From positions 1 through 34,745 of the forward strand of contig JAFZDU010000054.1 in NCBI GenBank assembly GCA_017561025.1: DNA of 34,745 nt. Reading direction: 5' to 3'. The stretch comes from Bacteroidales bacterium. GTDB lineage: Bacteria > Bacteroidota > Bacteroidia > Bacteroidales > F082. The first letter of the stretch is position 1; each line of letters opens with the position of its first letter. A model generated the notes under the pieces. That model had not been told where the DNA came from and ran no database searches. It saw only the letters and a list, made by a program, of their open reading frames with translations. A program made the position numbers and the translations under genes. Of the stretch, positions 12,268 to 34,745 are shown piece by piece.

Positions 12268-12312
12268 TAATATTTGACAGATTATATCGTTACAACTAAA
12301 AATAAATGAATC

Positions 12313-13359: not shown

Positions 13360-13362
13360 TAA

Positions 13363-14755: not shown

Positions 14756-14757
14756 GT

Positions 14758-14786
14758 ATTTAAACCTTGTTTAAATGCTTTTTTTT
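14758..14786 (+). terminator. Terminator overlapping the efp promoter
   Basis: ATTTAAAC and GTTTAAAT form a perfect 8-bp stem with a CTT loop, followed after GC by eight T residues. The right side of the hairpin contains the -33 element of efp. Confidence 0.7.
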
Positions 14787-14796
14787 CGTATCTTTG
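14766..14796 (+). promoter_or_regulatory. Promoter of efp
   Basis: CTTG (14766-14769), a 19-nt spacer and TATCTTTG (14789-14796) fit the Bacteroidota consensus. Initiation near 14803 leaves an AT-rich leader of about 60 nt before the ATG at 14862. Confidence 0.7.
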
Positions 14797-14861
14797 TACG
14801 CAAATAAACAAAAAAACTTGATTGATTTTTTATTAATTGAATATTAGTAACTTAGATAATT

Positions 14862-15425: not shown

Positions 15426-15432
15426 TATTTAA

Positions 15433-16371: not shown

Positions 16372-16394
16372 AGGTATAAAAGTCAAACGACAAT

Positions 16395-16431
16395 AAAAAG
16401 ACTAAGGATAGATTTCTTTAGTCTTTTTTTT
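16395..16431 (+). terminator. Terminator of the efp operon
   Basis: AAAAAGACTAA pairs with TTAGTCTTTTT across a loop of about 14 nt and continues into more T residues. Confidence 0.75.
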
Positions 16432-16443
16432 ATTTATATAGAT

Positions 16444-16472
16444 AAAATAAAAGCGCCGCATTACGCAGCGCT
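16444..16472 (-). terminator. Terminator of the NagB-like gene
   Basis: On the minus strand AGCGCTGC and GCGGCGCT pair (one G-U) around a 5-nt loop and run into TTTATTTT. It lies 24 nt past the stop at 16496. Confidence 0.7.
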
Positions 16473-16495
16473 CCATATGATTTAGATATTTATTA

Positions 16496-18817: not shown

Positions 18818-18844
18818 AATTTTAAAAAGTTTAAAAATATTCAA

Positions 18845-18852
18845 CAAAAATA
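18845..18852 (-). promoter_or_regulatory. Probable -7 element of the NagB-like gene
   Basis: TATTTTTG on the minus strand (18852 to 18845) lies 27 nt before the ATG at 18817. No clear -33 element was seen. It lies only 13 nt from the divergent -7 box of the fucosidase operon, so the two promoters must share or compete for space. Confidence 0.45.
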
Positions 18853-18865
18853 TGAAAAAAATAAT

Positions 18866-18873
18866 TATTTTTG
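18866..18873 (+). promoter_or_regulatory. Probable -7 element of the GH95-GH20 operon
   Basis: TATTTTTG at 18866-18873 matches TAnnTTTG and lies 16 nt before the ATG at 18890. The -33 element is not recognisable, which could mean an activator is needed. Confidence 0.45.
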
Positions 18874-18889
18874 AAGAAAAAAGTAATAT

Positions 18890-21304
18890 ATGAAACTTAT
18901 TTTAATACCCATCATTATATTCATGATTTTCAAGTGGAAAAAGCTTCATTTCCTATTAAAAGCAGCCACTATTTTAATGTGTATTCTATTGTTAAAACAG
19001 GAAAAGACAAAAGAATTATACTATTTCTTCGAAGAGTCTGCCACATGTTGGGAAGAGACTCTGCCTTTAGGAAATGGCCGTCTCGGAATCATGCCTGATG
19101 GTGGCATTGAAAAAGAAAATATAGTTCTTAACGACATAACATTATGGTCAGGGAAAGTGGCTGACTATTCCAATCCTAATGCCAAGGAAGCCCTGCCGGA
19201 AATACAACGTCTCCTGCTTGAAGACAAGAACTACGAAGCACAGGAACTTGTATACAACACATTCACATGTTCTAACAAAGGATCTAACTGGGGAAATGGC
19301 GCTACTGCCAACTTCGGATGCTTCCAGACATTAGGAAACATCAATATCGACTACACATATAATGATAATTCGAAGATAAAAGACGGATCTTACATCAGAA
19401 AACTCGACATTAACAATGCTGTAGCTACAACAGAATTCGAAACAGAAGACGCAAAATATCGCCGTGAATATTTCGTGTCAAGAGACTCTGACGTGGCTGT
19501 GATTCGCCTTGAAGCCAATAAGAATGAAATGATTTCGGTAGACATCAACTTAAATAGACAAGAACGCGTCAATTATGTCACAAACGATGAATCCATCGTG
19601 ATGTTCGGACAACTGAATGACGGCGATAATGGCGATGAAGGAATGAAATATCACTCACAACTCACAGTGAAAAACAATGGTGGAGAGGTCAAATATAAGG
19701 ACAACAAAATCATTGTAAGAAACGCAGACGAACTTACTCTTATCTTCTCATCTGCAACGAATTACAAAAATGAAAATTATGTCGCTTTCACCGACAGCCT
19801 GATGAATGATGCTAAAGACCGTTCATATATATCATTGAAGAAAAAACATATCAAGACTTATCAGGAGCTATTCAACAGAGTCGAGCTTGATTTGGGCGAT
19901 GCCATAACCGAAAACCATCCTATCAATGACAGACTCTTTGACTTCCAAGAAGAGGAAGACCCTCAGCTGGCTGCATTATATTTCCAATACGGACGTTATC
20001 TCATGATATCTTCAACTCGTGAAGACCTGCTGCCACCTAACCTGCAAGGACTATGGGCAAACAGCATACAAACTCCTTGGAATGGCGACTACCACCTTAA
20101 TATTAATGTACAGATGAACCACTGGCTCGCAGAAATATGTAACCTTTCCGAACTGCATAGACCGCTTATAGAGTTCACAAAAAGCATAGTAGAGTCAGGT
20201 GAAAACACAGCAGAAGGCTTCTACGGAGCCGATGGATGGACCGCACACTCAATCTGTAACTTATGGGGATTCACAGCTCCTGGCGAACATCCTTCATGGG
20301 GCGCAACCAACACTGGAGGCGCATGGCTGTGCCAACATCTGTACCAACATTATCTGTTCACAAAAGACATTGATTATCTAAGAGAAATATATCCTGTGAT
20401 GAAAGGCGCTGCCAAGTTCTTCAATTCCATCATGATCGAAGAAAAAGAACACTCATGGTTGGTGACAGCACCTACTTCATCACCAGAAAACTCATTCTAC
20501 CTGCCAGACGGAAGAATAGCAAGTGTTTGCATGGGACCAACAATGGACATACAAATCATCACCGAGTTATATCAAAACGTAATAGCTTCGGCTGAACTTT
20601 TGAACATAGATAATGAGTTCAGCGATACACTTAAAAATGCCTTGACAAAATTTCCTCCAATGCAGATAAGCGAAAACGGTTATCTCCAGGAATGGATTAA
20701 AGATTATGGCGAACCGGAGATTCATCATCGTCATGTCTCGCATCTCTTTGGCTTGCATCCTGGAAGACTTATAACAAAAACCAAGACACCTGACTTATAT
20801 GAAGCTTGCAAGATATCTTTAGACCGCCGCGGTGATGAAGGAACAGGATGGTCACGCGCATGGAAAATCAATTTTTGGGCACGACTACACGACGGTGACA
20901 GAGCATACAGACTTATTAAGAATCTCCTACAGCCAGCAATAGTCGGAGAAAGGGTAGGAGCTGGTACATATCCAAATCTATTCTGCGCTCATCCGCCATT
21001 CCAAATAGACGGTAACTTCGGAGGCACAGCTGGCATAGCAGAAATGCTGCTTCAATCTCACGACGGATTCATTGAAGTGTTGCCTGCATTACCCGCAGCG
21101 TGGAAAGACGGATACTTCAAAGGCTTATGTGCAGAAAACGGTGCTGTAGTAGACTGCTATTGGGAAGATGGTGAAATGACAAGGACAAAGATAAAATCTA
21201 AGACAGGTGGCACATATAATATATTAATGCCTGACGGTTCTGTTAAGGAAATTACTTTGAAAAAAAATGGAACTAAAATAATTAGGAATGATTTAAATAA
21301 ATAA
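18890..21304 (+). CDS. GH95 family alpha-L-fucosidase
   Basis: An 804-aa enzyme that removes terminal, typically alpha-1,2-linked, fucose from glycans by inversion. The entry motif WEETLPLGNGRLGIM and LNDITLWSG are GH95 signatures. Catalytic residues match those known from Bifidobacterium AfcA: N404 and N406 in HLNINVQMNHW, the acid E533 in SSPENSFY, and D707 in QIDGNFGG. The N-terminus is hydrophobic and basic, consistent with export, but it is odd, with two hydrophobic stretches; a start at the ATG at 18923 (MIFKWKKLHF) would give a more ordinary signal. It is followed by GH20 after 7 nt, so both enzymes are made together and probably trim mucin-type or milk-type glycans. No SusC/SusD pair is nearby. 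Confidence 0.93.
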   Translation: MKLILIPIIIFMIFKWKKLHFLLKAATILMCILLLKQEKTKELYYFFEESATCWEETLPLGNGRLGIMPDGGIEKENIVLNDITLWSGKVADYSNPNAKEALPEIQRLLLEDKNYEAQELVYNTFTCSNKGSNWGNGATANFGCFQTLGNINIDYTYNDNSKIKDGSYIRKLDINNAVATTEFETEDAKYRREYFVSRDSDVAVIRLEANKNEMISVDINLNRQERVNYVTNDESIVMFGQLNDGDNGDEGMKYHSQLTVKNNGGEVKYKDNKIIVRNADELTLIFSSATNYKNENYVAFTDSLMNDAKDRSYISLKKKHIKTYQELFNRVELDLGDAITENHPINDRLFDFQEEEDPQLAALYFQYGRYLMISSTREDLLPPNLQGLWANSIQTPWNGDYHLNINVQMNHWLAEICNLSELHRPLIEFTKSIVESGENTAEGFYGADGWTAHSICNLWGFTAPGEHPSWGATNTGGAWLCQHLYQHYLFTKDIDYLREIYPVMKGAAKFFNSIMIEEKEHSWLVTAPTSSPENSFYLPDGRIASVCMGPTMDIQIITELYQNVIASAELLNIDNEFSDTLKNALTKFPPMQISENGYLQEWIKDYGEPEIHHRHVSHLFGLHPGRLITKTKTPDLYEACKISLDRRGDEGTGWSRAWKINFWARLHDGDRAYRLIKNLLQPAIVGERVGAGTYPNLFCAHPPFQIDGNFGGTAGIAEMLLQSHDGFIEVLPALPAAWKDGYFKGLCAENGAVVDCYWEDGEMTRTKIKSKTGGTYNILMPDGSVKEITLKKNGTKIIRNDLNK

Positions 21305-21311
21305 TAAAAAT

Positions 21312-23570
21312 ATGAAAAGAATACTCTTGTTATCAGCAATCTTCGCATTGCTTTCATCATGTGCTGAGAAGAAAGCTGCTGTCGTAGATGCCAATCTCGA
21401 CATTGTACCTGTACCACAGGAAGTGGTAGTATGTATGAACGAAAACGGTTTCCAGCTCAACAAAGAAACTGTCATCATTTATGAAAATGAAGCAAATAAG
21501 TTCAATGCAGACTTTCTGCAATCCTACCTTAAAAACATTTTCAAGTCAGATTTGAAAATATGTAAAAATAACAGTGATGTGTCTAATAGCATTAAGCTTA
21601 ACATAATTGACGCTTCTCAATGTGAAAGCTTAGGCATGAAAAACGACAAAGAGGCTTACCTCTTGAGCGTTAGTCTCGACAAAATCGATATTTTCGCCAT
21701 AGATGCCGCCGGCATTTTCTACGGCATCCAAACTTTGATTCAAATGATGCCTAACGACATATATTCTGAAAATGCCGTCAAAGTCGCCGGAGTCACTTTC
21801 CCTTCATTGAATATCATCGACAATCCTCGTTTCAAATACAGAGGTCTTATGCTTGACTGCTCTCGTACTTTCTTCGATGTTGACTACATCAAGCATCTCT
21901 TAAATGGCCTGGCTCATTACAAGATAAACAACTTCCACTGGCATCTTGCTGACGACCAAGGCTGGAGATTGGAAATAAAGGCTTATCCAAAACTCACAGA
22001 GTTAGGTGCATGGAGAGGAGCCAACGAACTTCTCATGCCAGCTTATGGTTCAGGCAATGAACGTAACGGCGGCTACTATTCACAGGAAGAAATAAAAGAC
22101 ATAGTGAAATATGCTGCTGATAGAAATATAAATATCATCCCTGAAATTGATTTGCCTGGACACAGCAAGGCTGTCGCCGTGACATATCCAGAAATAGTCT
22201 GTCAGATAGAATCTAAACACCTTAGCGTACAAGGCGAATCTAACAACGTATGGTGCGTAGGTCGTGAGGAAAACTATGCTATGCTCGAGACTATCATAAC
22301 AGAGATGACAGAACTCTTCCCAAGCAAGATTTATCACATAGGAGCCGACGAAGTCAATATGAATTCATGGCGTGACTGCGATGTGTGCCAAAGTCTTATG
22401 AAAGAAAAAGAGATGACAGAACTCGTTGAGCTGCAGAATCATTTTGTAAGAAGAATAGAAAAGATATTGGCAAAACATGGCAAGACCATGGCTGGATGGG
22501 ATGAGATCCTCGATGGGGGCGACCTCATGGAAACTACTATACCTTACGTATGGCAACACTCAGAAAGAGGCATCAAATCTGTCAAAGCCGGACAGCCAAC
22601 AGTAATGCAAGTAGCACAATATATGTACTTCGACATGAAACAGTCTGCCGACGAACGCGGACTCAAATGGGCTGCTATCATTCCACTTGACACAGTGTAT
22701 TCCTTCGACCCAATAGGCAATTTCGAATTGACAGAAGATGAAAAAGAACTAGTTTACGGCATACAAGGCGGATTATGGACTGAATGCGGACAGGTTCCTG
22801 GCTATGCCCATTATCAGCTATTCCCTAAGGTACTCGTATTATCTGAAATAGGATGGTCAGCATACGAAGACAGAAACCTCGATTATTTCAAGAAGAGATT
22901 ATACGACAACCATCTGGAAAAATTATACAATATGGACTTCGAATTCAGAGTGGCTCCCCCAACAGTAAGATATGAAGACGGAATGCTCATTGCTGAAAAA
23001 GATTACGACTTCCTTACAATACATTACACCGACGACAAATCAACACCGACTTTAGAATCTGCAGAATATACAGAAGCTATTGTAACAGACAATCCTGAAG
23101 CATACCGCTTCGCTACATTCTACAAAGAACGTCCAAGTATCCCAAGAGGCGCACAAAACATCGACTTGTATCATTACCAAAAACCCAATACTGTCGTGAC
23201 ATCCAACGTTCCAATGGAACAGGATATCAACATATTGGCAGACTACAATATGAGCACATATTGCTACACCGCACGTCCTGTACAGGAAGGCGACTATTTC
23301 CTATACACATTCGAAAATCCTGTCGAATGTGAAAAGATTTTAGCAGGAACCGGACACTATGGCTTGGCTATAGTCGGTCTTCCAAACGCACGAATCGAAT
23401 GGTCTTATGACGGAGAGAGCTTCATAAAAGGCGAGGAGTTCGTATATGATTACTTCGACGGCTACAAAGCAGAAATACATCCAGAACAAGCGGTAAAGGC
23501 TGTGAAGATTGTCGTTACCGGAATAGGAGAGTGCGAATACGCTATTCTACAAGACTTAAGAATTCAGTAA
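21312..23570 (+). CDS. GH20 beta-N-acetylhexosaminidase, lipoprotein
   Basis: A 752-aa lipoprotein (signal ending LLSSC) that removes terminal GlcNAc or GalNAc by substrate-assisted catalysis. Order of domains: a GH20b-type alpha/beta domain (about 35-160), the catalytic barrel (about 165-510) with YRGLMLDCSRTF, NNFHWHLADDQGWR, the D346-E347 pair in HIGADEVNMNSW and WDEILDGG, then a C-terminal beta region (about 540-752) resembling the chitobiase C-terminal plus F5/8-type carbohydrate-binding modules. Length is normal for Bacteroidales enzymes. It is the second gene of the fucosidase operon; defucosylation would expose its substrate. A 12-bp terminator follows. Confidence 0.93.
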   Translation: MKRILLLSAIFALLSSCAEKKAAVVDANLDIVPVPQEVVVCMNENGFQLNKETVIIYENEANKFNADFLQSYLKNIFKSDLKICKNNSDVSNSIKLNIIDASQCESLGMKNDKEAYLLSVSLDKIDIFAIDAAGIFYGIQTLIQMMPNDIYSENAVKVAGVTFPSLNIIDNPRFKYRGLMLDCSRTFFDVDYIKHLLNGLAHYKINNFHWHLADDQGWRLEIKAYPKLTELGAWRGANELLMPAYGSGNERNGGYYSQEEIKDIVKYAADRNINIIPEIDLPGHSKAVAVTYPEIVCQIESKHLSVQGESNNVWCVGREENYAMLETIITEMTELFPSKIYHIGADEVNMNSWRDCDVCQSLMKEKEMTELVELQNHFVRRIEKILAKHGKTMAGWDEILDGGDLMETTIPYVWQHSERGIKSVKAGQPTVMQVAQYMYFDMKQSADERGLKWAAIIPLDTVYSFDPIGNFELTEDEKELVYGIQGGLWTECGQVPGYAHYQLFPKVLVLSEIGWSAYEDRNLDYFKKRLYDNHLEKLYNMDFEFRVAPPTVRYEDGMLIAEKDYDFLTIHYTDDKSTPTLESAEYTEAIVTDNPEAYRFATFYKERPSIPRGAQNIDLYHYQKPNTVVTSNVPMEQDINILADYNMSTYCYTARPVQEGDYFLYTFENPVECEKILAGTGHYGLAIVGLPNARIEWSYDGESFIKGEEFVYDYFDGYKAEIHPEQAVKAVKIVVTGIGECEYAILQDLRIQ

Positions 23571-23591
23571 TAAAGCACGTATTATGAGAAT

Positions 23592-23618
23592 AAAAGGCTG
23601 CGTCAGACGCAGCCTTTT
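23592..23618. terminator. Bidirectional terminator
   Basis: A perfect 12-bp stem (AAAAGGCTGCGT with ACGCAGCCTTTT) has a CAG loop. T-runs are present on both strands, and it lies between the convergent GH20 and 176-aa protein genes, serving both. Confidence 0.88.
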
Positions 23619-23646
23619 ATGTTATTGAGAAATAAGTTTTTAAAGA

Positions 23647-24177
23647 TCAATTTAGTCCAAGCATTTTATATCCCATATCGTTGAGTTGCATTGCCATTCC
23701 CATGAGATACATCTGATGCAGACATTCCAGATAAGCCTCAACAGCTTCCTTTGTTCCGTGTTCTATATTTTGGTTACGTAAGAATGTGTTAGTGATACAA
23801 GCACATTCCGCAACGATATCTGTGACTTTCTTGCATTTCTCTTCTTTAAATCTTAGAACGTCTTCAAGTATATATTCGTCCATTTCATCGAAGCCTCTTT
23901 TTTCACGGAGAGTCTCGTAAATGTTTTCTTTGAATGCATATTTATCCCAGTTGACATCCCAGTATTTTGCCATCGCCATACCGACGAACATAATCCATCC
24001 GAGCGAGACCATCGGATATTCGTTATATTCTCTCACACCATCGGGCATATAAGCAGTTAAAATATTCTGCCATTTGTCTTCAACATCTGGGCAAATAGGG
24101 AAACGTTCTCCCACTACACCTTCCTGACGAAGATATTGCAATAATAAAGTCTTTAATTTATCACCGAAGTTTTCCAT
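23647..24177 (-). CDS. Conserved-looking hypothetical protein (176 aa)
   Basis: The family is not recognised by name. The protein is soluble, mostly helical and acidic, with no signal peptide. The N-terminal part (GDKLKTLLLQYLRQEG) is helical, the middle has a hydrophobic SLGWIMFVGMAMAKYWD stretch that is probably a buried helix, and the C-terminus (CLHQMYLMGMAMQLNDMGY) repeats the Met-rich MGMAM theme. It lies 19 nt after a 49-codon frame (24197-24346) and probably shares its promoter (24393-24400). The gene ends at a strong bidirectional terminator. Confidence 0.75.
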   Translation of the reverse strand: MENFGDKLKTLLLQYLRQEGVVGERFPICPDVEDKWQNILTAYMPDGVREYNEYPMVSLGWIMFVGMAMAKYWDVNWDKYAFKENIYETLREKRGFDEMDEYILEDVLRFKEEKCKKVTDIVAECACITNTFLRNQNIEHGTKEAVEAYLECLHQMYLMGMAMQLNDMGYKMLGLN

Positions 24178-24711: not shown

Positions 24712-24746
24712 GACTGTTGTCAATTGTCAGTTGACTGTTGTCTTAA
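24712..24746. repeat. Degenerate heptamer array at the edge of the direct repeat
   Basis: Five 7-nt units: GACTGTT, GTCAATT, GTCAGTT, GACTGTT, GTCTTAA. The last unit runs into the 135-bp direct repeat that starts at 24741. GACTGTT followed by a GTC unit also occurs in the array before the gene at 369. Confidence 0.6.
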
Positions 24747-24875
24747 CAAACCTTAACACCATTTCTTAATTTTTTACTGCTTTTATGTTAAAAATTGTTA
24801 AAAACGAAACATTTCCTTTGCAAACGCTTGACAAAAGGATGATGCTTGTTGTAGTTTTGCAAGAACCAAAGTTTA
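24741..24875. repeat. 135-bp direct repeat, copy A
   Basis: This segment matches 34083-34217 over 135 nt with three substitutions and no gaps. It contains the upstream region and promoter of a DUF1016 gene and ends just before where the start codon stands in copy B. Two tandem TGTTAAAAA words lie in its centre. Confidence 0.92.
24827..24859 (+). promoter_or_regulatory. Promoter of the decayed DUF1016 locus
   Basis: CTTG (24827-24830), a 21-nt spacer and TAGTTTTG (24852-24859). The inverted repeat that flanks the -7 box in copy B is broken here by two substitutions (GCTTGTTG and CAAGAACC). Confidence 0.5.
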
Positions 24876-25180
24876 GAAGTGGGCAATTATGTATCCGTCA
24901 ATAGCTAAATTGGCAGACATCATCTGCCGATTTGAGCGATGAGGACTGGGTACGAAGAGGGAACGGAGGAGGTAGGGTGAATTTAACCTCTTGACGACAA
25001 AATTTTTAAACGCGATTTCTCCGAGGCGGCAGACTGAAAGTTGAAAATCGAAAAAAGTCCTGTTAGGGACGACATTTCCCAGGCAGGTATGGAGAGCGAA
25101 GCTCGGAATGCCTGCAAGTATGACCGGACTAATAATCAAAGTGCTGAAGGCACGGTAGAAAATGGCCTATTGACAGACTA
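24876..25180. other. Foreign, GC-richer, structured insert in the DUF1016 relic
   Basis: These 305 nt occupy the place of 216 nt of coding DNA in copy B and show no resemblance to it. The base composition is richer in G and C than either flank. It can form hairpins: an AAATTGGCAGA/TCTGCCGATTT pair near 24908-24934 with a short loop, GTCC/GGAC near 25056, and GCAGG...CCTGC near 25083-25114 enclosing GAGC-GAA-GCTC. Two open frames (minus strand 24873-25139, plus strand 25041-25235) have no recognised domain and may be fortuitous. It may be a mobile-element remnant or a structured RNA; neither is proven. Confidence 0.5.
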
Positions 25181-25501
25181 TCTCTTACTGAAGAATTTGG
25201 GAAAGGGTATGACGAAAGCAATCTTAGATATATGAGGTTATTCTATAAAACCTTTCCAATTTGCGACTCACTGCGTCCCGAATTGAGTTGCTCTCATTAT
25301 CGACGTTTATTAAGTGTTGAGAATCAAGAAGCTATTGCTAAATATTCTGTTTTAAATGATGCCAAACACATTTTTGCATCCAAATATAAATTAACACTGC
25401 CAACGGAAGAAGATCTGCAAACAGAACTAAACAAAGCCCGAAAACGATTGGAATTAGAGGCACCATCCATAATCTACACAAAATTATGGATGGTGCCTTG
25501 A
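25181..25501 (+). pseudogene. DUF1016/YhcG pseudogene (N-terminus replaced, core deleted)
   Basis: From 25181 the sequence is homologous to the intact copy at 34434-34586 for 153 nt; most differences are synonymous. The encoded stretch includes EEFGKGYDESNLRYMRLFYK and the YRRLLSVENQEA motif. At 25334 it jumps straight to a family-type C-terminus (HIFASKYKLTLPTEEDLQTE), comparable with the end of the gene at 1515-2549. The whole PDDEXK nuclease core is therefore missing. The N-terminal 70 or so codons are replaced by the insert at 24876-25180, and a TGA in this frame lies just upstream. An 89-codon frame from ATG 25232 remains open but cannot make an active nuclease. Confidence 0.85.
25458..25498. 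terminator. 16-bp perfect hairpin between pseudogene and Hsp70-like gene
   Basis: AGGCACCATCCATAAT pairs perfectly with ATTATGGATGGTGCCT around a 9-nt loop. It lies 16 nt past the stop codon of the leftward Hsp70-like gene and overlaps the last codons of the pseudogene. There is no clear T-run on either strand, so it could be a terminator of lower efficiency, an mRNA-stabilising hairpin or the trace of an inserted element. Confidence 0.6.
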
Positions 25502-25514
25502 ATTATTAGTCAGT

Positions 25515-27095
25515 CTACAAATCTGTTAAACCATGCTCATACTTATACTCATTCTGTTCTTCTAAAATTTTAAAAACTTTTCTATCTTGCAAATAAATTC
25601 CATCAAACAATTGGTTTACACTTTCAAGTCTTACATCATCAGTTAGTTCAGAATGTGCCAAACCATAAGCATTAGCCAATATAGCGTATTCACCTAAAGT
25701 TAAGTTATTATTTGTTACTATAATAGGAAATGTACTTTCATCTATTCTTTTAACATCCTCAAAATATTTGTACTTTTGACATAATGAATCATATGTTGAG
25801 CCTCCACCAACATACAGCGACATATTATTATTTATAACTTCTTTCAACAAACTAGATGGTCGATTTGTCTGCTTAACAAATGTATTTATTACTTCTAAAA
25901 TTAGATCTTCTATCTTTTCTTTTACCTTTTGATAATAATATTTATTTATCTTATTTTTATCAAATTCCTTATCGTTAATAGAACACTTCTCCCTGATAAA
26001 GTTCAGACCATAAGGCATAGATATAAACTTAAATATATTTGTTTTATCATCAGATATACTAAAAAAAGAAATATCAGTAGTACCTCCGCCTATATCAAAT
26101 ATAAGATGTAACTTATTAGGTGTTATTTTTCTATTAGAAACCATCCTATTCAAGCAAGCGCATGCTTCTGGAAAAATCAAAATACCATATTCATTCTTAA
26201 GCGATTCGTCAAAATCTATAATTTTTGTAGTCTTGATTAAATCTTCATATTTTGCAGAAAGATAATCATTAAAATTATTTTTATACACATCTTCAACAAG
26301 ATAATATGCACTTAACAGCAAAGATGTGCCTGTCATTCGTCTTTCTAAATGATTTTGTATATCACATGGTATCCCCATTTGTATCGAAAAATATTCACCA
26401 TATTTTTCTTTAATCAAAAATATAACATATGATAAATACCATATAGATAATAGTTTATGATCAATTTTAAAATCCAATTCACCATAATCATACACCGCTT
26501 GTTTAAAATATTTGAAATAAAATTTATTGTTTTGGGCATTAGATTCTATTTCTTTTTCATATTCTTTATAAAGACTTTCGTTAATATTTTTTATTCTATT
26601 CAGTTCTTTTAAATGAAAATTTTCAATTTCAACACATTTTTTCTCCCATTTAATTATTTTTTCCTTATATCTGTTGTTATCATCAGTCCATTTTTTATAT
26701 TCAATACTTTTCTTGTAATTAAATTTCTGTTTAACAGATAATAGAACCTTTTGCCATGGCAATAAATCCAAACCTGTTGTAAATGCTGTTTTAATATCAA
26801 ATTCCTTTGGTTTAGTGGGTTTATCTGGATATTTTAATTCAGGCTCTTTTAAATATTCTGGTTCCTTTACATCTACTATATCATGATCATATAAACAATT
26901 TTCTTCGTTACAAAACCCATAACTTAATGTATGATCTTTATTTATTTGAATTATGGATGGTAGACAATAACTAATATTTCCATTTAAATCGTCAAAAGAA
27001 AGGAATTCATAATAAACATTTATAGGGTTATCATTATTTTCGATACAAACCTTTGTTTGATGTGTTCCAAAATCAAGACCAACTGTTATTGACAT
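25515..27095 (-). CDS. Divergent Hsp70/actin-fold ATPase with helical insert
   Basis: A 526-aa ATPase of the Hsp70/actin superfamily. The phosphate-1 motif is VGLDFGTHQTKV (5-16), the phosphate-2 motif DIGGGTTD (334-341), and an adenosine-type motif YVGGGSTYD lies near 432-440; FPEACACL (308-315) occupies the connect-1 position. The nucleotide-binding core is therefore complete. It is interrupted by a Lys/Glu-rich, probably coiled-coil insert of about 110 residues (about 80-190), and the C-terminal DnaK substrate-binding domain is absent. It is not DnaK, FtsA or MreB. It starts 2 nt after the SNF2 gene stop, so the two are one operon and probably one system. The DNA is very AT-rich, suggesting acquisition. 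No function can be assigned with certainty. Confidence 0.8.
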   Translation of the reverse strand: MSITVGLDFGTHQTKVCIENNDNPINVYYEFLSFDDLNGNISYCLPSIIQINKDHTLSYGFCNEENCLYDHDIVDVKEPEYLKEPELKYPDKPTKPKEFDIKTAFTTGLDLLPWQKVLLSVKQKFNYKKSIEYKKWTDDNNRYKEKIIKWEKKCVEIENFHLKELNRIKNINESLYKEYEKEIESNAQNNKFYFKYFKQAVYDYGELDFKIDHKLLSIWYLSYVIFLIKEKYGEYFSIQMGIPCDIQNHLERRMTGTSLLLSAYYLVEDVYKNNFNDYLSAKYEDLIKTTKIIDFDESLKNEYGILIFPEACACLNRMVSNRKITPNKLHLIFDIGGGTTDISFFSISDDKTNIFKFISMPYGLNFIREKCSINDKEFDKNKINKYYYQKVKEKIEDLILEVINTFVKQTNRPSSLLKEVINNNMSLYVGGGSTYDSLCQKYKYFEDVKRIDESTFPIIVTNNNLTLGEYAILANAYGLAHSELTDDVRLESVNQLFDGIYLQDRKVFKILEEQNEYKYEHGLTDL

Positions 27096-27097
27096 AC

Positions 27098-30000
27098 TTA
27101 ATATATTTTAATATAATTGATAGATAATAAATCACTATGAATAGAAATATCACTTACTCTTCTATGTTTCTCAATTTCTTCATCTCTTTTAATTTCATGA
27201 TCTTTTATATTCGATTCCATCAACCTGATAATATTGGAGAGTTCGTTTTTTCTTTTTAAATCACTACAATATAATATTTCATTTTCAAATCGTTTTTTGC
27301 TTTCTTGCAATGATTTGATACGAGTTTCATACTCTTCTTCAGTTCTTTGTATTAATTGCATTTGAACAGCATCCATTCTCATTTTAAGATCATTTCTCAT
27401 TTCGGTTTCTATAGAATCGATTTTTTCTGATAATAGAAATCTCATTAATTCAATAGAATCAGGAGAAATATCGTGCGTTATATTATTCATTGGCTCTGCT
27501 ACAGTTTGTGATACACCAATCAAGTTATCAGCATATTCATTATTATCAATGATTGATTCATCATTTACCGAATATATCAATGGCAATAATTTTTCTAAAC
27601 ACTGACTTTTTCCATAAATTGACCTTTTTGTCTTTATTATATATATAGCCATATAATACAAACCAATAGGTAATTTAACATTATTTTTATTTATCTGAAA
27701 GCAGAATGTTTTCTTTACAGTATTACCTAATAAATTCTTAAAATAATTTGAAGCTGCTAAAATTATAGGATTATACATATTTATATATATTAAATCTTTA
27801 TGATAATATGCTTTTTCCTGTTCAAATGTTATCTTCAATCTTGTTTCATTATATATTAATTTCTTAAATTCAGAAAGCAATCTTTTATTTTCTTCATCAA
27901 TAGGCATATATTCATCAAGAAACCTTAATAACAATTTAGGATTATTCAATGGTATATTGAATTCATAAATTTTATCTCCCAATGATTTTAAAGTACAGAA
28001 AGTAAGTTTATGCTTTATTAAGGCATTAACATAATTATTCATTTCTATTTCTGTAACATAAGAATTGTTTGATTTAATCCTACTTATCTCATTTCTAAAA
28101 TATATGTCATTTGTAAGAGTATTTGTCAATCCTTCTTCTATGTTTTTTAAATTTTTACTTTCGTTTTCAATAGCTCTTTCGATTTGTTCTCCTTTTATCC
28201 TCATTTCTTCCTCAGATAGTTTTTTACAATAGAATTCTCTTTCCGTTGCTTCCAACATCTGATTAATATTGCTATATTGATATCCTTCTTTTTCTAAATC
28301 TTTATCAAGAATTGATTCTAAATCCCCAATCGAATTTCTAAATATACCAATTCTATCAAGCAATCTCGCATATATTTCTTCCTGTATAGAATTTTTTACT
28401 ATGATATTAGATATATTAACAATCTGTGATTTCTGTCCAAACCTATCTATACGGCCAATACGTTGTTCTACTACCATAGGATTCCATGGTAAATCATAAT
28501 TAACCATAGAACTACAGAATTGCATGTCAAGACCTTCACTTCCAACTTCAGATGATAACAACACTCTTATTTTAGGATTATCTCTAAATTCAGACAAGAT
28601 TGTGTCCCTTTCTTTAATATCTCCATGAAGGCTCAAACAATCATATCCTTTTGATTTTAAACGTAGTGCTAGGTACTTAATGGTATTTTTAAATAAAGCA
28701 AAAACAATTATCTTATTCTCGCCATTAGAAAAAGTTTCTTCTATTATCTCTACAAGTTTATCAAATTTAGCGTCTGGTCTTTCATTAAAATAATCTATTC
28801 CATTATCTAGATTGTGCGAATCATTCATAAATCCATATACACTACTAGCAATCCTACGTTTCTTCTGAACCAGACCAAGCGCTTTTCCAGGATCCATTCT
28901 AACATCATCATTCCAATCAATATATGAATTGTCATCAATATATTCATCAATAACTTTTTGAAACAATTCTCTTTCATATTCATACAAAGAAACTCTATGA
29001 GTATGTGGTCGTCTTTCCGCTTGTGACCAATCTGTTGTAATATCTCTTTTTCTTGTTCTTGAAAATATATTATTCATAGGACTCATTGTAGACAAGTCAT
29101 ATTGCAATTGGGCTCTAACTGCAGGAGTATCCTCACAATTCAAACAATTATCAATAATTTTATTGTATAGTTGTACTGATGAATATAATTCATCTACTGT
29201 TTTAGATGTTTCATAATATCTTTCATCAATCTTTCGACTTGTAATGACTTCCTCTTTTCTTAATGTATCAGCAATTTCTTTTAACGGAACATTATTATTA
29301 ATCGACGACAAAGCATGTAAGAAAGGTCTATTAGAAGATAATATGTTATTAAAATTTTGACTATCATTGTATCTATCGCTATCCATCAAATGCAATAAAT
29401 TATAAAGATTTTCTGTACTTATCATAATAGGCGTTGCTGTTAATAAAACAACAGCATTAGAATGCTGTAATATAATTTCAGCCCCTTTGTAAGATTGAGT
29501 ATTACGATTTCTTAGTCTATGAGCTTCATCACAAATAACTATATCGAATTTTTTATCACTATTTTCGATATAGCTTATCAAATCTGTTTTAGAAGATTTT
29601 AGTGAATCATACTTTTGTCGTCTTATTTTTTCATAATTGATGATTCCTTTAATAGAAGAATCTTTTAAATTTTGAATTAAACTGTTTTTATCTTCATAGA
29701 TAGTAAATGATATTCCAAATTTATTATATAATTCATCTTTCCACTTTTCTTGAAGTGATTTCGGGCATATAATCAGTGCATTCCTAAGTTCACCTCTAGC
29801 TTTTTGTTCTAACAATACATGTCCAGTTTCAATGGTTTTTCCCAAACCCACCTCATCAGCAATAAGGATTCTTTTATTATCCGAATTTAAAAATTTTAGT
29901 AATGGTATGAATTGATATGCTTTAAATATAGTTTTTGATGCAGCTAATGATGATATTGTGTTATTATTTGAATTGAATATTTTAAATGTTGTATTTAACA

Positions 30001-30226
30001 ATGAATAATCGTCATGTGAACCGTATATGTTTTGTTTACAACATTCAAACGGATTATCCATATCATAGCATGGAATAATATTGGACTCCAATTCATCCTT
30101 ATCAAAATCAGTGTATCTTATATTATATAACTGTCTTCCTCTTTGAGGTTTGCAAACTTCAATAACAACACCTTTTTCTAGAGTATTTACATTTTGTATT
30201 TTATCACCAATGTTAAATTTTGCCAT
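27098..30226 (-). CDS. SNF2-family ATPase, RapA/HepA-like
   Basis: A 1042-aa SF2 ATPase. An N-terminal Tudor/SH3-like region (1-55, FNIGDKIQN...GVVIEV...YNIRYTDF) recalls RapA. The SNF2 core follows: Q-motif AYQFIPLLKFL, Walker A DEVGLGKT (124-131), Ia ALIICPKSLQEKWKDEL, DEAH box (233-236), LLTATP (262-266), IV KIIVFALFKNTIKYL, V LLSSEVGSEGLDMQF and VI RIGRIDRFGQ. The last 400 residues are helical and charged, with coiled coils near the end. Such enzymes translocate on DNA or remodel polymerase or nucleoprotein; related proteins occur in defence systems (for example DrmD in DISARM). It leads a two-gene operon with the Hsp70-like ATPase and has a good promoter. No methylase, nuclease or phospholipase gene lies in the same operon. 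Confidence 0.9.
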   Translation of the reverse strand: MAKFNIGDKIQNVNTLEKGVVIEVCKPQRGRQLYNIRYTDFDKDELESNIIPCYDMDNPFECCKQNIYGSHDDYSLLNTTFKIFNSNNNTISSLAASKTIFKAYQFIPLLKFLNSDNKRILIADEVGLGKTIETGHVLLEQKARGELRNALIICPKSLQEKWKDELYNKFGISFTIYEDKNSLIQNLKDSSIKGIINYEKIRRQKYDSLKSSKTDLISYIENSDKKFDIVICDEAHRLRNRNTQSYKGAEIILQHSNAVVLLTATPIMISTENLYNLLHLMDSDRYNDSQNFNNILSSNRPFLHALSSINNNVPLKEIADTLRKEEVITSRKIDERYYETSKTVDELYSSVQLYNKIIDNCLNCEDTPAVRAQLQYDLSTMSPMNNIFSRTRKRDITTDWSQAERRPHTHRVSLYEYERELFQKVIDEYIDDNSYIDWNDDVRMDPGKALGLVQKKRRIASSVYGFMNDSHNLDNGIDYFNERPDAKFDKLVEIIEETFSNGENKIIVFALFKNTIKYLALRLKSKGYDCLSLHGDIKERDTILSEFRDNPKIRVLLSSEVGSEGLDMQFCSSMVNYDLPWNPMVVEQRIGRIDRFGQKSQIVNISNIIVKNSIQEEIYARLLDRIGIFRNSIGDLESILDKDLEKEGYQYSNINQMLEATEREFYCKKLSEEEMRIKGEQIERAIENESKNLKNIEEGLTNTLTNDIYFRNEISRIKSNNSYVTEIEMNNYVNALIKHKLTFCTLKSLGDKIYEFNIPLNNPKLLLRFLDEYMPIDEENKRLLSEFKKLIYNETRLKITFEQEKAYYHKDLIYINMYNPIILAASNYFKNLLGNTVKKTFCFQINKNNVKLPIGLYYMAIYIIKTKRSIYGKSQCLEKLLPLIYSVNDESIIDNNEYADNLIGVSQTVAEPMNNITHDISPDSIELMRFLLSEKIDSIETEMRNDLKMRMDAVQMQLIQRTEEEYETRIKSLQESKKRFENEILYCSDLKRKNELSNIIRLMESNIKDHEIKRDEEIEKHRRVSDISIHSDLLSINYIKIY

Positions 30227-30254
30227 ATCAATTACATATATTCAGATTGTATCG

Positions 30255-30286
30255 CAAAGTTAATAAAATAGTAAAATCAACACAAA
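30255..30286 (-). promoter_or_regulatory. Promoter of the SNF2-Hsp70 operon
   Basis: On the minus strand TTTG (30286-30283), a 20-nt spacer and TAACTTTG (30262-30255) match the consensus well. The leader before ATG 30226 would be about 20 nt. The rest of 30227-30398 is AT-rich spacer with no gene. Confidence 0.7.
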
Positions 30287-30398
30287 ATATATTGGTAATT
30301 TTGTCTAATGCATTTCAAATAATCAGCCTATAATGTTCACCAATTATTTTGGTATATTGCTGTGTATATTGGATGATGATTTCTAATTAAGTTATGCA

Positions 30399-31829
30399 TT
30401 ATTCTATAACGGGACGTATAGTTAATCCACATTCTCTAGAACGAACACCCATTAAACCAGTATCATTTTTATCAGATTCTAGACAATATGAAACATAATT
30501 ATTTAAAGGTTTGCTAATCCAATAGCACCCACTTAAATCTGAATTAATTATTGTTGAATCTATATTTCTTCCTGCTGCTGGGAAAAATATATAGTTACCA
30601 TTAGGTCCTGTTATTCTAAAACCTTTTATTCCATCTTGCTCAATCCATTTTTTAGAACATTTATTTTGTAATTCATACATTTCAGTACTTGTCGGAATTC
30701 TCCAAGCACCACCCCACTTATTTCTTGCTGCATCATACTGTGGATTTCCTGAAATATCATTCATTTCAATCCCATATGTTAAACTGTTTTCAGACGTATA
30801 TTCATTTTTAATTTCAGTTTCACCCCATGCATAATAATTTCCATATTCTTCAGGATAATCGGCACCAATATTACAAGTTGCCCATTTTATACCACTATCC
30901 AATCCTAAATCAACCCAGTCATGTCCATCAATTAATTTATTAGTCTTAAACTCTATTATTTGACTATAAGTTATGTCTTCTGCATCAATTGAATATGCTC
31001 TTAAGTAATAAGTAGTATCATCTATTAAATTATTTATAATAGTTGTAAAATTATTTGTTTCATAATTTATTATTGTATAGTTATCATCAATTGTTGGATT
31101 ATCATAATTACTCCAGCAAAATCCATAATCAAGTATTGACAAACCTCCTTCAGACACAATATTTAATGTACATTCTACAGAAGTTGCTGTGATATTAGAT
31201 ATTTTAGACTCTATCATTGGTTTGTTTATATCTCCTCCAAAAACAGGACGAATCAATTTTGCAACATAACGGTAATCAGAATATAGTCTAGGATTACCAT
31301 TCCCAAAATCATAAAGAGAATAGGAATAATTATTGTAATTAGATGTATTAGGAGTTGAAGTCCAATAATCTAACTTTTCTTGAATAGGAAGAAAAATATA
31401 ATTATCATTAGGACCTATAATCTTAAATCCTTCAATGTCTTTTTGAGATATTCTCTTCCATTCACAATTTTTTATCAATTCTTCCATTTCTGTCTTTGTA
31501 GGAATTCTCCAAGGGAATTGCCAATTTGCACATGCAACATCATATTCTTCATTAGCAGAAATATCATGTATTTGCATTCCATACGTTAAACTATTTTCCG
31601 CCGTATATTTTAATTTCACTTTTATTTCTCCCCAAGCGTATTTATTGCCATAATTTTCGGGTATTGATGCGCCGACATTACATGTTGCCCATTTTACTCC
31701 ACTAGGCAACCCCAAATCTACATACAAACGATTATTCTTAAAATTTGTAACAGGAGGAATATCGTCTTTTGTACATGCATAATTCAACATTATCATTGCA
31801 CATATCGCAAACAAAGTAATCCTTTTCAT
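30399..31829 (-). CDS. Lipoprotein with two Fib_succ_major domains and an Fn3-like linker
   Basis: A 476-aa surface lipoprotein. The signal peptide ends at Cys19 (LNYAC) and the following TKDD fits the acidic Lys-Asp surface-export signal of Bacteroidota lipoproteins. Residues about 35-200 and about 305-475 are two copies of the Fib_succ_major domain; both show VDLGL.SG.KWATCN, AWGE, WRIPT.TEM and IIGPN/ITGPN.NYIF. Between them is an Fn3-like segment (about 205-300) with SVECTLNIVSEGG and TTYYLRAYSID. The domain also forms the protein at 369-911. The gene starts 29 nt after the PEGA protein gene, so the two are one operon. Adhesion or glycan binding is a guess. Confidence 0.85.
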   Translation of the reverse strand: MKRITLFAICAMIMLNYACTKDDIPPVTNFKNNRLYVDLGLPSGVKWATCNVGASIPENYGNKYAWGEIKVKLKYTAENSLTYGMQIHDISANEEYDVACANWQFPWRIPTKTEMEELIKNCEWKRISQKDIEGFKIIGPNDNYIFLPIQEKLDYWTSTPNTSNYNNYSYSLYDFGNGNPRLYSDYRYVAKLIRPVFGGDINKPMIESKISNITATSVECTLNIVSEGGLSILDYGFCWSNYDNPTIDDNYTIINYETNNFTTIINNLIDDTTYYLRAYSIDAEDITYSQIIEFKTNKLIDGHDWVDLGLDSGIKWATCNIGADYPEEYGNYYAWGETEIKNEYTSENSLTYGIEMNDISGNPQYDAARNKWGGAWRIPTSTEMYELQNKCSKKWIEQDGIKGFRITGPNGNYIFFPAAGRNIDSTIINSDLSGCYWISKPLNNYVSYCLESDKNDTGLMGVRSRECGLTIRPVIE

Positions 31830-31858
31830 ATTTTACATATTTATATTGTATTTTACAT

Positions 31859-34000
31859 TTATTTTTTCCAATTTATACCTATGGAAAACCTAATTTCTGT
31901 CATACTGAATAAATTCGATGTTACAATATCTAAACCAAAACTCACATTTCTGTTCCATTGTAAACCCACCAAAAAATCTAATCCTTTATAACTATTGTTA
32001 GGATAATATACGTATTCTTGATCATATGTTTCCCAACATTTAATTTTCATTCCGTAACCCATCCCCAATCTATAATAACATCCACTTTTATCATCAAGAA
32101 ATCGTCCTATAACTCCTCCTATAAATGATAATTTTGTGGATTCTGTTTTTCCGTTTAAAGCTACCTCATTATATGTTTTATCAATAGTATTAAATCCAAC
32201 AAAATTAAAATTACTCATTGCAGTGACAAACCAACCAACTTTTTTAACAGAGCCAAATGATAAACCATATGAAAACTGTGGTGCTGATGAATATGCTGCA
32301 TTAATAGTAATGAAATCAACACCATTTTTTAAGTATTGTTCCAAAGACTCTCTCTGGGGATATAAATGATATGAATCAACACTTGTTTTTGTTAAATAAA
32401 TTGTTTTAGATTCAGATTTCTTACCTCTTTTTACTTCTACTATGTGATCACCTAAAGATAGTTCTAATGTAATTGGAGATTTACCAACGTTCTTTCCATC
32501 AACATATATATTATCTCCTTTTTTAGATGAAGTTATTGTAATGGTTTTTCCAAATTTTAGAGTATATTCAGCATTGCTGTTACTTTCAATCTTAATTGTT
32601 TCTATAGTTGTTTGACTTTCTCTAATTGCCTTAATCTCGTGATTTCCATAAGGCAAATTTATTGTCACAGGACTAATGCCAACATATTCTCCATCAACAT
32701 AAATCTTATCACCACTTTGTCCTGTATTTATTGTAACTTCTTTACCAGTTTCTAATATTTCATTTATCGACAATAGTTTTCCCTCCTCAACAAAAATGGT
32801 TTTCTTTAACTCAGCGCATCCTTGTTTTATGAGCTTCAATTCGTGCTCTCCAATTAATATTTCAGAGATATAATTTGGTGTTTCCCCATATTTATTACCA
32901 TCAATATAAATATCTGCTTCCATAGGAGTGGTGTTTATCTCTAAAGACCCATTTATTGGTTTCGGTGCATCAATTTGTATATCTTGTGTTTTACCTAAAA
33001 ACAAACTCACACTTTTCTTACTTGTCTTATGATTATTTTTTCTTGCTTCCAAAATGTGGTCTCCATCGGAAAGTCTACCACTCCAGCTGCCTTTACCTTT
33101 GTATTCTTCATCAATATATATGTCAGATTGAGCATCTGTGCTAATTGTTACGTTCACATAATTTGCAGACATTTTAATATTTGCATTTATTGTCTCTCCA
33201 TCAGTTATAGTAAATGTCTCCTCTTTCATTTTGTACATATCCATCATAACTTTGACAGTATGAGAACCGCTTCTCAACTTATCGGTTTTTATAGGTGATA
33301 TTCCTAAATATTCTTCATCAACAAAGACTTTAGCTCCTTGTTCCGGAGTTGTTGAGATATTCAGATAACCAAAGTTTGGACGTAGCTTTTTATCTATTAC
33401 AGTTCTTTCATTTAATGTTACAGTTCCACTTTCTGTATGATACATATTACATTTTATCATCCAAGTATGTGTGGAACCGACCGCAAAAAGTTTAGATGTT
33501 TCTTTTGTCGAGAGAGGTTGATCATCAATATAAATAACAGCATCATCTTGGTCTGCTTTAATGATAAGATGCGCTTTTTGAGATTGCAATTGTTCTTCTT
33601 CAACCACAATCGGCACATACTGCAACACCATTTCGTATGTACAAAAATCGCATAGTTTCTCAGGAAGGTAATATTTATAGGTTCCGTAATCTGGGTGCAT
33701 TATATTAACAAAGGTGGCGTTTTCTGCAGAGATGTATATCCACATCTGACCGGTCTTTGGTGTTTTGGTTATTTGCGTTGCAAGGTTACCGCTGAACTTC
33801 AAGCGTAATCTTTCTTGCTCCGGTATGTTCTCCGTCGATATCTTTATCAATGCCATAGGAAGGTCGTTTCCGTCTAAATGGTCGTATTTGTCATTCATTA
33901 TGGCATTAGGAATTTGCTTGAAAGAACCTTCTTTCACTTGCATCTGTGCAAAGGTATTCAATGAAATAAAGGTCAATAATATAAGTAGTAGTTTCTTCAT
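31859..34000 (-). CDS. PEGA-repeat protein with C-terminal barrel-like domain
   Basis: A 713-aa exported protein: a Sec signal peptide (MKKLLLILLTFISLNTFAQ), a beta-rich N-terminal domain (about 20-142), six PEGA-type repeats of about 65-70 residues (starting near 143, 209, 279, 348, 418 and 483) and a C-terminal part (about 550-713) with alternating Gly/aromatic strands ending in IRFSIGINWKK, as in small outer-membrane barrels. Clear repeat motifs are GAKVFVDEEYLGISPI, DKIYVDGEYVGISPV and DNIYVDGKNVGKSPI. PEGA domains are thought to bind or anchor at the cell surface. It has its own -7 element and is co-transcribed with the lipoprotein gene. Its partner and ligand are unknown. Confidence 0.85.
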   Translation of the reverse strand: MKKLLLILLTFISLNTFAQMQVKEGSFKQIPNAIMNDKYDHLDGNDLPMALIKISTENIPEQERLRLKFSGNLATQITKTPKTGQMWIYISAENATFVNIMHPDYGTYKYYLPEKLCDFCTYEMVLQYVPIVVEEEQLQSQKAHLIIKADQDDAVIYIDDQPLSTKETSKLFAVGSTHTWMIKCNMYHTESGTVTLNERTVIDKKLRPNFGYLNISTTPEQGAKVFVDEEYLGISPIKTDKLRSGSHTVKVMMDMYKMKEETFTITDGETINANIKMSANYVNVTISTDAQSDIYIDEEYKGKGSWSGRLSDGDHILEARKNNHKTSKKSVSLFLGKTQDIQIDAPKPINGSLEINTTPMEADIYIDGNKYGETPNYISEILIGEHELKLIKQGCAELKKTIFVEEGKLLSINEILETGKEVTINTGQSGDKIYVDGEYVGISPVTINLPYGNHEIKAIRESQTTIETIKIESNSNAEYTLKFGKTITITSSKKGDNIYVDGKNVGKSPITLELSLGDHIVEVKRGKKSESKTIYLTKTSVDSYHLYPQRESLEQYLKNGVDFITINAAYSSAPQFSYGLSFGSVKKVGWFVTAMSNFNFVGFNTIDKTYNEVALNGKTESTKLSFIGGVIGRFLDDKSGCYYRLGMGYGMKIKCWETYDQEYVYYPNNSYKGLDFLVGLQWNRNVSFGLDIVTSNLFSMTEIRFSIGINWKK

Positions 34001-34020
34001 TATCTCTAATTTGATGTAGA

Positions 34021-34028
34021 CAAATATA
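34021..34028 (-). promoter_or_regulatory. Probable -7 element of the PEGA-lipoprotein operon
   Basis: TATATTTG on the minus strand (34028 to 34021) fits TAnnTTTG, 20 nt before the ATG at 34000. No -33 TTTG was found at the usual spacing. Confidence 0.45.
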
Positions 34029-34082
34029 GATAAAAAGACAATATAAATAATTGTAAATTTTAAAGATTTACTTCCTTTTAAT

Positions 34083-34217
34083 TCTTAACAAACCTTAACA
34101 TCATTTCTTAATTTTTTACTGCTTTTATGTTAAAAATTGTTAAAAACGAAACATTTCCTTTGCAAACGCTTGACAAAAGGATGATGGTTGTTGTAGTTTT
34201 GCAACAACCAAAGTTTA
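34083..34217. repeat. 135-bp direct repeat, copy B
   Basis: Matches 24741-24875 over 135 nt with three substitutions. It is the complete upstream region of the DUF1016 gene at 34224, up to 6 nt before its start codon. Confidence 0.92.
34169..34201 (+). promoter_or_regulatory. Promoter of the DUF1016 gene with flanking inverted repeat
   Basis: CTTG (34169-34172), a 21-nt spacer and TAGTTTTG (34194-34201). The -7 octamer is enclosed exactly by the perfect inverted repeat GGTTGTTG (34186-34193) and CAACAACC (34202-34209), a likely operator or leader hairpin. Confidence 0.65.
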
Positions 34218-34223
34218 TGTCAC

Positions 34224-34745
34224 ATGAAAAAAATCATTAATAGCAAAGAGGAAAGTATTTTCCTGGATTCATTAAAGGATATCGTTAAGTCCGCAAGAAA
34301 ATATGCTTATTCATCTATATGTTTCGCTCAAGTTCAATCTAATTGGTTATTAGGGAAACGTATTGTTGAACAAATACAGAAGGGCAATGACAAAGCTGAA
34401 TATGGAAAGCATATTTTAAAAATCGCTTCTGAATCTCTTACGGAAGAATTTGGTAAGGGTTATGATGAAAGTAATCTTAGATATATGAGATTATTTTATA
34501 AAACTTTTCCAATTTGTGACGCACTGCGTCACGAATTGAGTTGGACGCATTATCGTCGTTTATTAAGTGTTGAGAACCAAGAAGCTCGTATCTGGTATAT
34601 GAACGAAGCCGCTAATTCTGTCTGGTCAACACGACAATTGGACAGACAAATCTCTACTTTATATTACGATCGTTTGTTAGGCAGTCATGACAAGAAAATT
34701 GTAACTGATGAAGCGGAAGAAAAACTACAGAAGATAATTCCTGAA
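34224..34745 (+). CDS. DUF1016 / YhcG-type nuclease, N-terminal part (runs off window)
   Basis: The first 174 codons of a DUF1016-family protein; the gene continues past the window end, so the PDDEXK nuclease domain is not seen. The start is ATG 34224 (MKKIINSKEES). An ATG at 34217 in another frame stops after seven codons and overlaps it. The DUF1016_N motifs EEFGKGYDESNLRYMRLFYK and ELSWTHYRRLLSVENQEAR are present, as is the WSTRQLDRQISTLYYDRLL helix. It is clearly more similar to the pseudogene at 25181 than to the copy at 1515. Autoregulation is possible given the inverted repeat around its -7 box. Confidence 0.9.
   Translation, partial: MKKIINSKEESIFLDSLKDIVKSARKYAYSSICFAQVQSNWLLGKRIVEQIQKGNDKAEYGKHILKIASESLTEEFGKGYDESNLRYMRLFYKTFPICDALRHELSWTHYRRLLSVENQEARIWYMNEAANSVWSTRQLDRQISTLYYDRLLGSHDKKIVTDEAEEKLQKIIPE

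Follow-up and report, generated by a model that had tools for sequence, protein, structure and literature searches.

A pair of adjacent genes at positions 25515–30226 of a Bacteroidales genome contig probably encodes a horizontally moving, undescribed two-component immune module directed against invading elements. The window, that is the whole stretch of DNA analysed here (34,745 nucleotides (nt); JAFZDU010000054.1 of assembly GCA_017561025.1), is the complete contig C51, one of 126 in a 2.79-Mb genome estimated to be 84% complete. On its reverse strand, a gene for an SNF2-family translocase (1042 amino acids (aa); 27098–30226), recognised from its open reading frame (ORF), Pfam and PADLOC matches and an alignment to RapA that sets approximate domain limits, is followed after 2 nt by a gene for an ATPase of the actin/Hsp70 superfamily (526 aa; 25515–27095), recognised from its ORF and motif alignments. 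Our reading is based on the adjacency and co-divergence of the two genes, the nucleoside triphosphatase (NTPase) motifs kept in both proteins, the sporadic presence of the pair, defence genes near part of its copies and one fusion to a Septu protein; anti-phage activity itself we infer from sequence. The pair is not named by the PADLOC 2.0.0 models and, in the open-licence literature searched, we recognised no paper describing an SNF2 protein paired with an actin-fold ATPase, in keeping with an earlier note, made from the letters of this DNA, which knew of no named defence system of this composition.

Single-sequence searches with the window ATPase found no relative in genome contigs and no match in plasmids or phages, while a two-row alignment did recover relatives from genome contigs. 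ATPase genes were present in 33 of 87 pattern-matching stretches in genome contigs and 1 of 34 in viral contigs, which with one further locus (L002) make up 35 ATPase-seeded loci. All 35 have an SNF2 gene immediately upstream on the same strand, at a spacing of −14 to +24 nt (median 2), although that of L002 is cut by the edge of the stretch and is complete in L074. L073 (genome G615) and L075 (genome G016) are also pairs, so the conservation across genomes that the earlier note proposed to check extends to 37 of 37 non-plasmid ATPase loci. The SNF2 protein and the ATPase are the only families common to all 35 loci, and no third conserved gene was found among these beyond a family present in 6. 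Pairwise distances of the two proteins across 34 loci correlate with r 0.923, against a maximum of 0.296 in 2000 permutations (none as high), a correlation that would also arise from shared descent alone. The SNF2-ATPase pair is a real unit. In one locus (L021, 9998–11614) the ATPase gene lies in two frames beside an intact SNF2 gene, reflecting a broken gene or an assembly error. Three loci of the 35 (L017, 11445–13004; L018, 11425–13509; L026, 11283–12971) have in common a downstream gene of 519–694 aa that overlaps the ATPase gene or comes very close to it and has an LRR_5 match in L017; its product is a possible third component of a sub-type.

The window SNF2 protein matches the Pfam families SNF2-rel_dom (4.1e-21) and Helicase_C (2.9e-24) and contains the core motifs DEVGLGKT, DEAH and QRIGRIDRFGQ. 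RapA is the best match of a 35-row SNF2 profile among solved structures (2.1e-55), from the region preceding the motor through the motor, and the N-terminal RapA-alignable region is presumably the Tudor part; the corresponding match of the C-terminal region, at 6.9 bits, is not significant alone. Conservation peaks at 0.87 in the motor and declines to ∼0.4 at the C-terminus, which ends in a charged stretch (aa ∼920–1015) judged from sequence to be helix-like. DISARM_DrmD is the best NCBIfam family, yet at 324.7 bits it is well short of its cut-off of 610, and DpdE and then RapA rank after it, both also below cut-off. The best PADLOC model is DrmD PDLC02623 (6.9e-117; no cut-off given), with DISARM, BREX and Dpd helicase models also matching the protein, and SNF2 motors recur in the DISARM, BREX, Dpd and Zorya models of that collection. 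PDLC02623 covers the SNF2 proteins of plasmid relatives from Sphingobium (720 bits) and Cyanobacterium sp. HL-69 (990 bits) nearly end to end and, as the ATPase is the next gene in both, part of what PADLOC labels DrmD belongs to the pair. Since the model extends over the C-terminal region in these two relatives, that region is not merely a charged tail; of the architecture first proposed, the N-terminus described as Tudor-like does align to RapA, and the last 400 aa, described as a charged helical tail, are conserved in part.

The ATPase is harder to place. No Pfam family reaches its cut-off for the window protein, with no PF00012 match at 0.1, and NCBIfam gives no match above any cut-off, such that all matches in family libraries are sub-threshold or short. 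A 34-row ATPase profile finds MreB (3.6e-5), an actin-family protein (0.0085) and Hsp70 (from 0.015) among solved structures, and with more divergent rows MreB (2.3e-5), Hsp70 (from 1.2e-4) and ParM (0.0053). Within its own genome, the 34-row profile best matches an FtsA-like protein (2e-9, named by eye), MreB (4.8e-6) and DnaK (8.9e-6), each over just 18–54 columns (51 in the N-terminal part of DnaK). Places corresponding to the motifs phosphate-1, connect-1, phosphate-2, adenosine and connect-2 occur in this order in 18 of 18 aligned ATPases, several with substitutions; both members of the pair do have the intact nucleotide motifs claimed for them. To judge from these sequences, the protein belongs to the actin/Hsp70 superfamily; we could place it in no known family, nor show it to be an Hsp70, and the Hsp70 fold first ascribed to it was too specific. 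It does lack a substrate-binding domain, as had been noted, ending 47 aa past the connect-2 Gly-Leu (478–479). The insert described as a coiled-coil is not a defining part: a charged insert of ∼130 aa precedes aa ∼193 of the window protein, and 14 of the 35 ATPases in the alignment lack it. After a variable linker, a short C-terminal tail recurs in 25 of 34 ATPases in two loosely defined patterns, 13 EHGLTD-like and 12 DDWDAWK-like (...YKYEHGLTDL in the window), and is perhaps a docking peptide. PADLOC model PDC-M61B was ruled out as the identity of the ATPase, its match being 43 residues at the phosphate-2 motif. Of 198 genomes of the order, 106 contain a match to this model; the matches listed lie mostly over ∼40–60 residues at the phosphate-2 place, in frames that are mostly of 420–510 aa with several near 640 aa, and which we take by eye to be FtsA and DnaK.

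The pair is rare: three of 393 genomes from the order have it, as do three of 395 from the phylum, with the window's own genome counted in each. The window copy lies in a chromosomal gene context common to sister genomes. In G790 the same site contains the flank, a DUF1016 gene, a PEGA gene (named by similarity) and a second DUF1016 gene before the chromosome resumes, with the pair absent; the flanking 176-aa protein is 93% identical there. G808 has neither the pair nor DUF1016 at this position. The site beside the conserved 176-aa gene is thus variable (window 24741–34745; G790, C91/L197; G808, C87/L198), the window adding the SNF2 pair and an Lcl_C gene, and the left DUF1016 gene of the window appears to have lost ∼520 nt of its middle relative to G790.

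Beyond chromosomes, nine plasmid records contain an SNF2 match at 1e-30, and in six of these the ATPase adjoins it: two Sphingobium, Aminobacter, Shinella, Cyanobacterium and, with the gene order reversed, Leptolyngbya, all from Alphaproteobacteria or Cyanobacteriota. All five motif places are recognisable in five distinct plasmid ATPases, and comparison of profiles with the window ATPase family gives 6e-14 to 4e-12 for L081, L083 and L084, 7e-10 for L082 and a weak 2e-4 for L080, a Sphingobium plasmid. By NCBI names the pair spans four phyla: Bacteroidota, Balneolota, Pseudomonadota and Cyanobacteriota. ATPase queries of plasmids return the same paired records and a Rippkaea plasmid, in which an ATPase remnant of ∼83 aa remains and the stretch viewed has no SNF2 gene. 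When 30 SNF2 proteins were placed in a quick tree, those with an actin-fold partner (25) required two label changes, which a single origin of the pairing could still accommodate; the outgroup is long-branched and does not fall on a single side of any branch. Other partners also occur: genome G533 and phage record L085 have a sacsin/GHKL-type gene next to SNF2. At L079 (3050–9732), in a bacterial genome, and at L085 (9257–16042), in a phage, a distant SNF2 gene immediately precedes a gene of ∼1030–1050 aa with such an N-terminal domain. In L020 (2241–6758; Flagellimonas aequoris), L048 (5141–8815) and L079 (9747–13490), SNF2 genes of different clades are accompanied by a gene for a large helicase-like protein, its N-terminus similar in all three (SIRV-WHD, by eye), and the proteins of L020 and L048 carry UvrD/RecD-type domains.

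One tie to defence is found in L075 (contig C181, ∼5789–12599), where the gene after SNF2 encodes an 878-aa fusion of which aa 5–474 match the ATPase family (3.9e-38) and aa 420–865 match the Septu ATPase PtuA (1.9e-79), and the gene after that matches the HNH nuclease PtuB (1.7e-72). Gene fusion usually signals functional coupling and Septu is an established defence system, and the fusion makes the case for an anti-phage role stronger than the earlier note could make it. Farther on, L075 has a gene for a 966-aa protein that no PADLOC model matches, and genes matching PDC-S13 and a methyltransferase of type III. Over the 35 loci the recurrent neighbours are WYL regulators (6), HsdM (5), HsdR (5), HsdS (4) and AlbA_2 (4), and type I restriction-modification, AlbA_2/Schlafen or WYL relatives lie near the pair in 15 loci; with Pfam, domains of the GmrSD, Schlafen, Eco57I and BsuBI/PstI kinds are also recognised among neighbours. 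At 1e-15, 126 of the 127 closest neighbours (no more than two from each flank, at least 100 aa, one set aside for its size) matched 196 PADLOC families, led by WYL and type I methyltransferase, against 50, led by mad3 and UvrD/GajB-type matches, from 126 of 141 ORFs in 14 of 15 full-length 12-kb stretches from genomes of the same order, a small control of ∼9 proteins per stretch against ∼4 per locus and a count of families, not genes, in which one type I methyltransferase can match many models.

Both of those limits on the comparison weigh against an immune module, and they are not alone. For 20 of the 35 loci, the stretch examined, in some cases a short one, contains no member of the three recurrent classes of defence gene; the defence-gene neighbourhood that the earlier note proposed to test is seen in part of the loci only. 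No effector recurs beside the pair across the 35 loci, family-library scans recognised no nuclease or other toxic domain in either protein, and the PtuA fusion is a single case. The SNF2 gene also occurs without the ATPase. The remaining three of the nine plasmid records, which have the lowest-scoring SNF2, contain no ATPase in the stretch examined (one SNF2 gene adjoins an HSP90-family gene, one a DUF1156 gene and one no recognised partner), and the scores of paired (455–533 bits) and unpaired (216–449 bits) plasmid SNF2 proteins nearly touch. An SNF2 match at 1e-100 was obtained in three of 296 genomes searched, two of them paired and G533 without an ATPase. All three phage records with SNF2 lack the ATPase in the stretch examined, two ending right after the SNF2 frame. 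Viral contigs gave 321 SNF2 loci, of which 80 were retained; 79 of these have no strong ATPase match, two giving weak ones (28 and 20 bits), and the sole strong match is an ATPase-seeded locus already counted. Finally, ParA genes lie near three of the six paired plasmid copies, which a maintenance role would also fit.

If the pair is indeed an immune module, the RapA-like SNF2 protein might bind and move along double-stranded DNA, engaging invader nucleoprotein such as foreign transcription or replication complexes. Docked on the motor, perhaps via its own C-terminal tail or charged insert and the helical C-terminus of the motor, the actin-fold ATPase could gate or count motor activity through its ATP/ADP state or assembly. 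As a result, invader complexes may be removed or blocked, or a separate effector may be triggered, a possibility raised by the PtuA fusion. Each step beyond both proteins looking like NTPases and belonging together is our inference.

Other roles for the pair have to be weighed against this proposal. RapA being the best solved relative of the SNF2 profile (2.1e-55), with the part before the motor included, the pair could instead be an accessory of host transcription or nucleoprotein remodelling, in which SNF2 recycles stalled host RNA polymerase, the ATPase is a chaperone-like switch and there is no immune role. We regard this as unlikely: the pair is present in <1% of sampled genomes of the order or phylum and is missing at the same site in sisters, it occurs on plasmids, its ATPase has once been fused to a Septu protein, and helicase models of DISARM, BREX and Dpd match the same SNF2. 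A function in maintenance or partition of mobile elements, with a ParM-like ATPase and a DNA-tracking motor in place of the centromere-binding adaptor, would account for the ATPase weakly matching a family of phage ‘partition protein’ (3e-5), for ParM among its weak Protein Data Bank matches (0.0053) and for the ParA genes near three of six plasmid copies. Those three plasmids, however, are already supplied with ParA, the 172 bp upstream of the window pair contain no direct repeats (a ParR-like protein was not searched for), and the window copy resides in the chromosomal context that sister genomes have in common, making partition quite improbable.

The pair might also be subordinate to known defence systems. 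That it is a sensor or regulator serving an adjoining restriction system, and does not act alone, would explain the varied restriction and nuclease neighbours and the PtuA/PtuB fusion; 20 of 35 loci have none of the recurrent defence classes in the stretch examined, and no single neighbour family is present in more than 6 of 35, so we give this little credence. Least probable to us is that the pair is what is left of a DISARM system, or a variant of one, with the SNF2 protein as an orphan DrmD beside an unrelated gene that it retained or acquired. PDLC02623 matches the window protein at 6.9e-117 and its plasmid relatives near full length, but the NCBIfam score is little more than half of the DISARM_DrmD cut-off, scans of 13 of the window's 21 main ORFs with PADLOC and 2 more with Pfam found no DrmA, DrmB or DrmC and no operon of these with a methyltransferase, an MZB (DUF1998) match occurs in this incomplete genome only on another contig (C14, a 2052-aa frame), and the ATPase partner is conserved across phyla. 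In the places that we tested, we found no named system matching the pair, no rarity of the adjacency and no tie of a partner to a housekeeping process, the three outcomes that the earlier note had set against its own proposal.

Around the pair, the window agrees largely with what was first described. A match to a Bacteroidetes-type promoter consensus (TTTG-N20-TAACTTTG; 30286–30255, reverse strand) lies 28 nt upstream of the SNF2 ATG and bears out the one good promoter; the pattern has four matches in the window against 0.33 expected, and a sigma-70 scan was uninformative (49 found, 43.1 expected). Directly 3′ of the ATPase stop, a 22-nt inverted repeat (91%, 9-nt loop; 25452–25504) is, by its sequence, a possible terminator, and is absent from the output of a terminator scan of the window. 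Both genes are AT-rich, as stated, with GC fractions of 0.261 (ATPase) and 0.272 (SNF2) against 0.381–0.427 in eight genes spanning 12313–24177, and the Lcl_C and PEGA genes on the pair's other flank are likewise AT-rich (0.303 and 0.325). The repeats with DUF1016 genes said to enclose the pair are also there: two direct-repeat families (154 nt, 89%; 135 nt, 98%) at 24741–25333 and 34083–34586 flank it, the 135-nt copies lying on the forward strand at 24741–24875 and 34083–34217 (98% to each other). The left DUF1016/YhcG nuclease gene is a remnant (∼25180–25501, forward strand), recognised from two sub-threshold Pfam matches and alignment to the intact G790 gene, and the right one is the 5′ part of a gene that runs to the contig end (34224–34745, forward strand; DUF1016 match 2.8e-39). 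A further DUF1016 gene at 1515–2549 matches the PADLOC defence candidate PDC-S02. Proteins similar by eye are encoded at 30399–31829 (Lcl_C domain) and 369–911, with DUF1016 genes near both, at both window ends.

To our knowledge, the control of SNF2 motors in defence systems is often unclear, and, if our reading is true, a system reduced to two proteins, the motor and an actin-fold partner of its own, would be tractable for asking how such motors separate self from non-self. It would also place an actin/Hsp70-family ATPase in constant immune partnership with a DNA motor, and some genes now labelled DrmD would belong to another system.

Comparison with known systems sets the pair apart from each while relating its parts to several. 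The PADLOC model of Septu is not known to include an SNF2 protein; a PtuA-like fusion with PtuB is found in L075 only, and the window ATPase has no PtuA or PtuB match. In DISARM, DrmD is of the same SNF2 family, PDLC02623 fitting two plasmid relatives almost end to end; the pair differs in its constant partner, an actin-fold ATPase, and the window SNF2 is below the DrmD cut-off. PMC9142583 gives drmA, drmB, drmC and a methyltransferase as the DISARM genes, with DrmD less conserved, and PMC9716671 reports a cyanobacterium that has drmD and no complete DISARM, which would fit a DrmD label that covers the SNF2 family of the pair. For BREX-related helicases, the portion of PMC12839542 consulted describes a TUDOR-SNF2-inactive REase-alpha+beta architecture and likens BrxHII to RapA, to which the motor and preceding region of the window SNF2 are also alignable; that portion names no actin-fold partner, and the scanned window proteins include no BREX partner. 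SNF2 or Hsp70-like parts occur in other systems (PMC12458937, PMC7159879 and PMC11090510, in the sections seen), and CoCoNuTs and other conflict systems use Hsp70-like NTPase domains in predicted defence; these are McrBC- or GTPase-centred, and the parts of PMC11090510 and PMC7159879 seen describe no pair of SNF2 and a stand-alone ATPase. The cyanobacterial actin-like FcmB was rejected as a counterpart, having a different neighbour, fcmC, and the words ‘SNF2’ and ‘helicase’ do not appear in the text of PMC12645912. With Hsp70, MreB, ParM and FtsA the ATPase has in common the phosphate and adenosine motifs and weak profile matches; it differs in falling below Pfam and NCBIfam cut-offs, in its lack of a substrate-binding domain and in matches that cover part of the protein only. 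Eukaryotic SNF2 remodellers such as SWI/SNF and INO80 have actin or Arp subunits, and thus also join an SNF2 motor to an actin-superfamily partner, a resemblance of plan only. By this analogy we tentatively suggest that the pair may correspond in prokaryotes to the SNF2-plus-actin remodellers: a RapA-like DNA translocase with a constant, co-diverging actin-fold subunit would remodel invader nucleoprotein in immunity, and could be linked through gene fusion to separate killers such as Septu.

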